This document shows, piece by piece, positions 11,075 to 16,671 of a DNA stretch of 32,296 nucleotides. The stretch covers positions 1-32,296 of IMG/VR virus record IMGVR_UViG_3300042541_000778; one strand, written 5' to 3'. Positions within the stretch are counted from its first letter, which is position 1; every line of letters starts with the position of its first letter. This DNA is from a virus. The notes beneath the pieces are model-generated. The model was not told the origin of the DNA, ran no database searches, and saw nothing but the letters and a program-made list of their open reading frames with translations. A program made the position numbers and the translations under genes.

Positions 11075-11279
11075 TGATTAGGTTTTTAAATTTTTGTAAT
11101 CTTATAAATGCCATTTTCCGATCCTGTGGACAATGGCTGTTTAAACGATCCATGGTAACTGCCACAAATATTCTTGAATTGGTAATCATTTCCCAACCTG
11201 TTAGCTGAATATCTATAGATTCATTGGATAATAAATATTGATGGCCCCAATCCCATGCAGCTTGATAATTAGGTTTCAT
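11043..11279 (-). CDS. Protein of unknown function, 78 residues
   Basis: Not recognised. A Trp/Tyr-rich start (YQAAWDWGHQYL) precedes a predicted amphipathic centre and a basic helical end (RLQKFKNLINELRQKEKQN). It overlaps the VRR-NUC gene stop by four bases (ATGA) and the following gene by 32 bases, so the three are likely co-translated. Confidence 0.7.
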   Translation of the reverse strand: MKPNYQAAWDWGHQYLLSNESIDIQLTGWEMITNSRIFVAVTMDRLNSHCPQDRKMAFIRLQKFKNLINELRQKEKQN

Positions 11280-11689
11280 CTTAATATTTGTTCCTGTAGC
11301 TTACCATCAATGTATCCAGATCTGTATCCGGCTTGATACAGATCAATAATTGGATCTGATTTGTAAATCCTTAACAAATCAATTAGATCATCCAATGATC
11401 TAACTATTTTGTAGCAATAACCATGATGTTCTACCATTGATTGAAATCTCTTTTGGTTCGGCTGTTGCTTACCATCGGCAAACTTAACTTCAATAAACAG
11501 GCCATGATGGGTATTATTAGCCATAACGATAAACAGATCAGCTGCGCCGGCTTTCAATCCTTCGGCATTTAATGCTCTGCCTACCCTTGGATGTCTTAAC
11601 CCACCGTTTGGAATACTAAAGAAATCATAGCCATTCCAATCAAGATACTGACACAAAATTACTTGCAGGTGATGTTCTTCTTTTTTCAT
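11276..11689 (-). CDS. VRR-NUC domain nuclease
   Basis: 137 residues. E5 near the N-terminus (KKEEHHLQVILCQYL), FFSIPNGGLRHPRVGRALNAEGLKAGAADLFI, then GLFIEVKFADGKQQPNQKRF and GYCYKIVRSLDDLIDLL, form the full VRR-NUC fold with its PD-(D/E)XK core (D of AADL, E-x-K of FIEVK, Q of QPNQ). Stand-alone phage VRR-NUC proteins are thought to cut branched or junction DNA during replication and packaging. The gene lies downstream of the repeat-rich control locus and is coupled by ATGA to the next gene. The last 30 residues extend past the usual domain. Confidence 0.92.
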   Translation of the reverse strand: MKKEEHHLQVILCQYLDWNGYDFFSIPNGGLRHPRVGRALNAEGLKAGAADLFIVMANNTHHGLFIEVKFADGKQQPNQKRFQSMVEHHGYCYKIVRSLDDLIDLLRIYKSDPIIDLYQAGYRSGYIDGKLQEQILR

Positions 11690-11695
11690 TGTTGA

Positions 11696-11866
11696 TTATG
11701 GTTTATGATTATCCATGAATTTAATAAATCCGGTATGATCATAGATTTCACTATCTACAATTTTTTTTTTAGCCATTGGAATTTCTATAGCGCTAATCAC
11801 AGCTGTTAATATTATTATAAACGCAGTGATCAAAACAACGAAAAACGGATGTATGATCTTATTCAT
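11696..11866 (-). CDS. Small membrane protein, 56 residues
   Basis: Starts at ATG 11866-11864, which shares ATGA with the stop of the 34-residue gene upstream. The frame is open to 11911, but the coupled start gives a cleaner protein: a short N-terminus (MNKIIH), one membrane helix at about residues 7-28 (PFFVVLITAFIIILTAVISAI), then a charged tail containing MAKKKIVDSEIYDHTGF. Not recognised. Confidence 0.7.
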   Translation of the reverse strand: MNKIIHPFFVVLITAFIIILTAVISAIEIPMAKKKIVDSEIYDHTGFIKFMDNHKP

Positions 11867-11967
11867 ATTGCTAAATAGATTAAAAGTATTGTAATGGCCA
11901 ACATAGACCAAAAATTAATTTCAGCGCTTAAATCTGCTGATGATACTTTTTTACCTTGATTTTCCAT
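11863..11967 (-). CDS. 34-residue small membrane protein
   Basis: Starts at ATG 11967-11965 and stops at TGA 11865-11863 inside the start of the next gene. The N-terminal half is polar (MENQGKKVSSADLSAEIN) and the C-terminal half is a membrane helix (WSMLAITILLIYLAI). It is the first gene after the 228-bp control region. Its leader (TTTAAACAAAGGTAAATAAACAAATT) is A-rich as expected here. Function unknown. Confidence 0.6.
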   Translation of the reverse strand: MENQGKKVSSADLSAEINFWSMLAITILLIYLAI

Positions 11968-11996
11968 AATTTGTTTATTTACCTTTGTTTAAAATA

Positions 11997-12017
11997 TAAG
12001 GGTAATTTTTACCCTTA
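11997..12017. repeat. Perfect 9-bp inverted repeat
   Basis: TAAGGGTAA, 3-base loop, TTACCCTTA. Read on the minus strand it is followed by TATATTTTAAAC, a weak U-tract, so it could be a terminator or a palindromic operator ahead of the 34-residue gene. Confidence 0.6.
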
Positions 12018-12044
12018 TTTTGTTACCTAATTAGTTAACTTTTA

Positions 12045-12096
12045 CCATCATTATATGTCAATTGTGCTATTAATGATGGAATTATCCGACATATAA
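12045..12096. repeat. Two interlocked 9-bp inverted repeats
   Basis: CCATCATTA (12045-12053) pairs with TAATGATGG (12071-12079), and TTATATGTC (12051-12059) pairs with GACATATAA (12088-12096). The arms interleave and share three bases, so the two stems are largely alternatives in one strand. Both are perfect matches. Confidence 0.65.
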
Positions 12097-12100
12097 CATT

Positions 12101-12161
12101 AATTATTTTTAAAGTTATGCGTTTAATTTGTCAATTATATTTAAAGTTATGCGTTTAATTT
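12101..12161. repeat. Two direct repeats, 29 bp with one mismatch, period 32 bp
   Basis: Copies at 12101-12129 and 12133-12161 share the core AAAGTTATGCGTTTAATTT and differ only at 12107/12139. The 32-bp period is close to three helical turns, placing both copies on one face of the DNA, as iterons and operator pairs often are. Confidence 0.8.
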
Positions 12162-12195
12162 AAACCTATCTGCTTTGTCTTTTTCTGTCATTGTC

Positions 12196-12432
12196 TTATT
12201 GGTTTAAATTGTTCTGGCTATTCGGATTTTCCGAATTACCACTTTGTTTAGTAATTAACCTACCATGTTTTGTGTATTTACCTTTTTCCATGTTGTCAAT
12301 GTAAATATCCTCATGCGTAATAATCCCAAAATCTATATTTGGTTTGAAATTTACTGCTTTTACCTGTTTATTTTTTGGATATAAAAAATAAATAATGCCT
12401 GTAATGGCAATAATGCTGATAACTTTTTTCAT
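12196..12432 (-). CDS. Small membrane-anchored protein, 78 residues
   Basis: One N-terminal hydrophobic segment at about residues 4-19 (VISIIAITGIIYFLYP) is followed by a polar domain with KPNIDFGIITHEDIYIDNMEKGKYTKHGRL and an Asn/Gln-rich end. It could be an uncleaved signal anchor or a poor signal peptide. Not recognised. The leader AAAAACCTAATCA-ATG is identical to that of the gene at 11074. It is the last gene before the repeat-rich locus. Confidence 0.7.
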   Translation of the reverse strand: MKKVISIIAITGIIYFLYPKNKQVKAVNFKPNIDFGIITHEDIYIDNMEKGKYTKHGRLITKQSGNSENPNSQNNLNQ

Positions 12433-16476: not shown

Positions 16477-16671
16477 TTACTTATTGGTTTGGTTTAGGAT
16501 GTTAATAACTTTTTCTATTTCTGCATTAATTACAGGATCATTTACCTTTCGGCTAATAATACTCTGGATGTTATGGGGTTTAAACTCCCTTGCACTATGT
16601 GGCAAATAACCCATTTTATTTAGATTATCTGCCACCATTTGATGTATTTCGTACTGCTTTACTTTACGCAT
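16477..16671 (-). CDS. Protein of unknown function, 64 residues
   Basis: Basic, helical: VKQYEIHQMVADNLNKMGYLPHSAREFKPHNIQSIISRKVNDPVINAEIEKVINIL. The alternation of helices with a SAREFKPHNIQSII turn could be a small DNA-binding fold, but no family is recognised. It is directly adjacent to the annealase gene and overlaps its upstream neighbour by eight bases. Confidence 0.7.
   Translation of the reverse strand: MRKVKQYEIHQMVADNLNKMGYLPHSAREFKPHNIQSIISRKVNDPVINAEIEKVINILNQTNK

Follow-up and report, generated by a model that had tools for sequence, protein, structure and literature searches.

The window analysed here, the full 32,296-base stretch of an IMG/VR virus record, carries its structural, replication and lysis open reading frames (ORFs) all on the minus strand. 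Since its terminase is 38-41% identical to Bacteroides and Phocaeicola phage terminases, among the top matches listed, we infer that the virus is of a Bacteroidetes type. The region under study, positions 11968-12195, is flanked upstream by the gene for TM78, a 78-aa probable membrane protein (12196..12432, minus strand), and downstream by a 34-aa ORF (11863..11967, minus strand, start at 11967), which is the first gene in that direction and precedes a VRR-NUC nuclease gene (11276..11689, minus strand; PF08774, E 2.8e-7). A sequence-only reading of this DNA had described an AT-rich locus with 29-bp direct repeats at a 32-bp period, two interleaved perfect 9-bp palindromes and a 9-bp hairpin. 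The GC content is indeed 23%, against 33% window-wide, the repeats (12101-12129 and 12133-12161, 97% identical) and both palindromes (12045-12053/12071-12079 and 12051-12059/12088-12096) are present, and the hairpin, at 11996-12018, has 10 pairs and a 3-nt loop. The accompanying description of the locus as the only long gene-free stretch holds in part: its features are in place, but it contains a 14-codon remnant ORF, and other intergenic gaps measure 176-237 nt.

Near-identical repeats of 29 bp are not attributable to chance. Thirteen close relatives (91-99% identity) were obtained among 17 loci from a VRR-NUC search; 12 cover the site, with L020 in addition. An accessory gene, which we name gene A, is intact in six relatives (L002, L003, L008, L011, L014 and L020; 76 aa in L008) and reduced to a short remnant in L004, L005, L013 and the window, where the 14 codons left encode MTEKDKADRFKLNA (12147..12191, minus strand). 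Read from these relatives, the repeat unit consists of the last codons of gene A and the bases after them. Thus, on the minus strand of the window, repeat copy 1 (12133..12161) overlaps the remnant at its 3′ end and copy 2 (12101..12129) is a tandem duplication of the gene A 3′ end; two copies are present in L003, L008, L011, L014 and L020, and one in L002. Because the 3′ end of gene A is the repeat unit in the relatives, the 29/32-bp repeats are, as judged from this comparison, the duplicated 3′ end of an exchangeable accessory gene that has been lost here. Their meaning, like that of most parts of the locus, is therefore not the one first proposed. The repeat also resembles M5, a repeat of more distant phages (see below), 28 of 2000 shuffles being equally good, and in view of this resemblance a common origin of the two is possible.

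A different picture was obtained for the 95-nt region at 12014..12108 (minus strand). This region is conserved, was aligned in 16 and later in 35 distinct copies, and is matched by R1, a covariance model built from 16 of these copies, that of the window included. We name this element M1. R1 matched 34 of 80 TM78-bearing loci at E<=1.3e-4, and M1 is also present in other contigs, further ones being identified with DNA patterns (L055, L059-L062 and L064-L066). It is absent from the other 46 TM78 loci, 44 of which have at least 1 kb of downstream sequence. M1 is not at the site in the close relatives L002, L003, L014 and L020, whose contigs are fragments, and the record of L024, whose contig stops within this region, gave no strong R1 match. 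Searches of whole records, in two overlapping sets, yielded a single strong R1 match in 13 of 17 and in 17 of 23 records. The counts leave out L063 and L067 (pattern matches due to chance as judged by eye) and L056 and L058 (pattern matches without the element); those based on 35 copies also leave out L169 (partial element). The exact duplicates L140 and L141 were dropped as well. L095 and L097 were kept out of the alignment; they are on the same contigs as L011 and L010, whose copies are those of L008 and L009. No convincing M1 match was detected in 50,697 named phage records or in plasmids; cellular genome contigs gave 13 pattern matches, which by eye resemble chance, and a best covariance-model match (L069) with E 0.041. 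No described element of this kind came up in searches of an open literature library that leaves out most subscription papers. Repeat-containing intergenic control elements of phages are a known kind, but M1 seems to be undescribed as a family.

Both palindromes lie within M1 on the minus strand. The first, P2 (12045..12079), forms at least 8 of its 9 pairs in 22 of the 35 copies, and the second, S1 (12051..12096), does so in 10 of 35 and is perfect in only 4. The 52-nt interlocked structure is kept in L004-L006 and L008-L013; L012 and L027 have a diverged version. The check for conservation of repeats and palindromes in close relatives gave a mixed outcome: one palindrome is partly kept, but the other is mostly not, and the 29-bp repeats follow gene A. 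The window has one interlocked pair of perfect stems 8 bp or longer, on the minus strand, and one or more such pairs were present in 18 of 100 whole-window dinucleotide shuffles, so that interlocking alone says little and the weight falls on the homologs. The columns of an imperfect palindrome, GTTACCTAATTAGTTAAC on the plus strand (12022..12039), are different in most of the copies that lie outside the window clade (for example TTCGACAAATTATGTCAC on the element strand). The hairpin at 11996..12018 can be made out in 7 of the 12 close relatives covering the site; as an intrinsic terminator, for which a GC-rich stem and then a T run are expected on the transcribed strand, it was rejected, being flagged on the plus strand only and having 3 GC pairs, while the genes are on the minus strand.

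The strongest internal regularity across M1 copies is not the palindromes but a 33-bp direct repeat. In the profile of the 35 copies this repeat, ATGTCACATAaTGAGGGTAAaATcCGACAAATT / ATGTcACAAAgTtAgggtatAattTgACaaAtT, scores 28.9 at lag 33, while 200 column permutations reach 20.8 at most, and the best dyad scores 15.9, with a null 95% value of 14.3 and a null maximum of 17.9. A position weight matrix, which had the window copies in its training set, places unit a at 12029..12061 and unit b, diverged in the window clade, at 11996..12028 (both minus strand). Unit b resembles M5, none of 2000 shuffles being as good. M5 (GTAAAGCTATAACTTGACAA) belongs, together with M2 (TATATGCAcAAgGGTATAAT) and M3, which contains TTATNCACA boxes, to the modules that are added in the longer gaps of relatives. 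Around 33 M1 copies, M5 was found 40 times in sense orientation near the element and never antisense or elsewhere; the corresponding numbers for M2 are 19, 0 and 1. M5 often ends right at the ATG of the gene that follows, and this ATG belongs to different genes in L128, L066 and L163. Of the 44 TM78 loci that lack M1 but extend 1 kb or more downstream, 10 carry M2 or M5 within 1 kb. In L002 and L003, M1 is absent between TM78 and the 34-aa ORF, where an M2-type repeat pair is inserted between the arms of a AAGGGTAA/TTACCCTT hairpin.

The genes on both sides of M1 change. An operator for the nuclease operon, one of the functions proposed from the sequence, fits the position of M1. Among 40 copies, duplicates included, the first downstream gene is VRR-NUC in 12 and the 34-aa ORF of the window clade in 10; a different gene follows in the other 18, namely a DUF6965-family gene in 10 and others in 8. 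Kinship with the DUF6965 gene of the window was assigned by ORF clustering, and in L136 the DUF6965-family gene sits behind a 32-aa ORF. The upstream gene also varies between copies while M1 persists. In the 65.7-kb record of L059, M1 lies ∼6 kb beyond TM78; TM78 is therefore not an obligatory neighbour. Despite these different neighbours, M1 copies stay 68-91% identical. The best reading of these comparisons is that the site would be one of gene-cassette exchange. In L014, L024, L006 and L009, the interval from TM78 to the 34-aa ORF gains and loses different small genes, several of which have similar last residues (YNETY...) and common junction DNA.

With somewhat less than even confidence, we favour a role for the stretch in the control of an early operon: it would be a non-coding cis-regulatory region of fixed orientation, acting as operator, promoter or leader and placed at a gene-cassette exchange site. 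M1 with its 33-bp direct repeat, accompanied in relatives by M2 and M5, is found once per record, in gene direction, and is kept while the genes of both flanks change; it lies directly upstream of an operon and its orientation is fixed, as expected for an operator or promoter. By binding a putative regulator, or by acting at the level of the transcript, the repeats would determine how the early gene that happens to follow is expressed, here the operon of the 34-aa protein and VRR-NUC. The conserved flank may in addition supply homology for cassette swapping.

Over 35 gaps totalling 8,108 nt, a strict Bacteroidetes-type promoter (TTG-N17-22-TAnnTTTG) gave 3 sense and 3 antisense matches, with no minus-strand match at the window site. 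One of the three strict matches in the whole window, TTG-N21-TACCTTTG at 11956-11987, is on the plus strand, opposite to the genes, and points into the hairpin. The sigma-70-like sequence at 12134-12105 is at chance level, with 15 such matches in the region against 20 expected. A 64-aa protein is encoded at 16477-16671 (minus strand), and 16 of 19 records, although their replication modules differ, encode a member of its family (64-85 aa); this count is based on ORF clustering of records that are in pieces (only 40 of the 65.7 kb of G001) and that all have TM78 by selection. Its AlphaFold model consists of three helices (pLDDT 82). As a helix-turn-helix regulator it was set aside, because PDB fold matches were no better than E 1.7 and PDB sequence matches no better than E 0.18; for the same reason the protein stays a lead, that is, only a candidate partner of M1.

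An alternative function for the stretch is that of a replication origin. In the sequence-only reading it may be bound by the winged-helix initiator of the window, a version that the relatives do not support. A match to this initiator (E<=1e-3) is lacking in 11 of 17 M1-bearing records and present in 6 (G000, G003, G004, G005, G006 and G018), several of the records being fragments. Six of the 17 (G001, G002, G007, G017, G024 and G025) instead have a DnaB-type helicase related to that of L060, and the parts of them that were read contain no 245-aa partner gene. Moreover, M1 is 91% identical between L065, which has VRR-NUC downstream and contains part of a 245-aa-type partner gene, and L060/L134, which have the DnaB-type module. 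Because M1 is common to initiator and DnaB-type genomes, with copies up to 91% identical, an origin specific to the winged-helix initiator is unlikely. In G003 (L054 / L183-L184), which retains M1, the initiator matches that of the window only at residues 182-251, towards its C terminus, a sign of possible domain swapping of its DNA-binding half. GC skew, suggested as a check, is negative along the whole window, and the cumulative curve has no turn and thus no origin signal. As to an origin inside the initiator gene, no repeat family there exceeds two copies.

The 33-bp repeats might still be iterons opened by another initiator, either host DnaA or a small protein conserved in the phages, a version that we consider unlikely. 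Multiple direct repeats in gene-free, AT-rich DNA, as in an origin, are present: they are spaced near 3 helical turns in DNA of 23% GC, at one place per genome and close to replication or recombination genes. The DnaA-box-like TTATNCACA is denser in the gaps of relatives (6 in 8,454 nt) than elsewhere (30 in 215,300), and iteron plasmid origins are described, in a section of PMC5043065, as combining phased direct repeats with DnaA sites. Against this, M1 is common to records with unrelated replication genes and absent from the same site in four close relatives (contig fragments); the repeats reach start codons and are in sense orientation only; and the gap of the window itself contains no TTATNCACA. 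The TTATNCACA sites in the gaps of L136, L134, L129, L144 and L148, some of which are closely related loci, lie downstream of M1 and are ∼5x denser than in the rest of the loci examined.

Structure in the transcript offers another explanation, to which we assign a low probability: a structured RNA leader would form the P2 hairpin, perhaps with S1 as an alternative or pseudoknot, and control the downstream cistron. The RNA fold of the window copy has a z score of -3.1, none of 200 shuffles being equally stable, and P2 outscores slid versions of itself on nearly all measures. Changes in the P2 arms, tallied on a quick tree with transversions and the mismatched pairs 33-63 and 34-62 excluded, also point in this direction. 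Thus, C-to-T changes at columns 31, 32 and 35 (8 events) and A-to-G changes at column 59 (4 events, 2 reversals) preserve G-U pairing on the sense strand, in contrast to T-to-C changes at columns 37 and 57 (2 events); the single G-to-A changes at columns 65 and 61 both arise opposite a partner T. This lean hints at RNA pairing and is no proof of it. Covariation of P2 over the 35 copies, although higher than in the slid versions, exceeds that of shuffles so slightly as to be unremarkable (42 to 68 of 500 shuffles are as high), that of S1 is no different from its shuffles, several copies form only 6 of the 9 P2 pairs, and the window has no Rfam 15 match at gathering thresholds. An outer stem, P1 (TTTGTCGG/CCGACAAA), is perfect in L060, yet over 16 copies it is no better than shuffles, and on the S1 counts given above an H-type pseudoknot was rejected as a general feature. 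A broader proposal, which we regard as quite improbable, is a portable expression leader: the repeats and hairpin would be a plug-in point at one exchange site, expressing and regulating any small early gene inserted there, with the RNA hairpin, in some lineages a pseudoknot, acting as sensor.

Very improbable, in our view, is that M1 derives from the 3′ portion of a small gene, has decayed and is kept only through recent descent. The frame PSLxEKMSHNEGKIRQIMSQ is open in most copies, a 44-aa ORF runs through it in L059, and the neighbouring 29-bp repeats are just such a scar. This frame, however, has in-frame stops in L055 and L062, most copies have no upstream ATG, indels occur upstream, changes at codon positions 1, 2 and 3 number 20, 9 and 14, and copies stay alike (68-91% identity) across different neighbours; the stops, the missing ATG and the lack of any protein-family match for the frame likewise led us to reject M1 as a coding gene. 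Finally, a mobile short element scattered through the genome is ruled out by the single strong R1 match per record.

Read as a cis-regulatory region, M1 is a non-coding element that is defined and can be searched for in uncultivated phages, probably of Bacteroidetes type, whose control signals are hardly known, and it would mark a recurrent cassette-exchange site. The locus also illustrates that repeats resembling iterons may, in a single genome, be left behind by gene loss, and that relatives decide this, not the repeats themselves.

Among known systems, iteron origins (lambda ori with its O protein, and iteron plasmids) are likewise AT-rich, with repeated sites near replication genes. Lambda iterons are given as 19-bp inverted repeats in sections of PMC5043065 and PMC9723704. 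M1 differs from lambda in having one 33-bp lag, unrelated replication genes across phages and repeats that abut start codons. In the leader of T4 gene 32, a pseudoknot has complementary arms that interlock ahead of a gene of DNA metabolism, and this arrangement is what M1 shares with it. Compared to the T4 structure and the classical H-type knot, the second stem of M1 is mostly unconserved, its loop 2 is long (11 nt) and its 3′ arms overlap by 3 nt. The stoperators of mycobacteriophages have a fixed orientation relative to transcription. Like these and other phage early operators, the M1 repeats are short asymmetric sites whose orientation is fixed with transcription. Stoperators, however, are distributed across the mycobacteriophage genome, as stated in a part of PMC9283540, whereas M1 is present at one locus.
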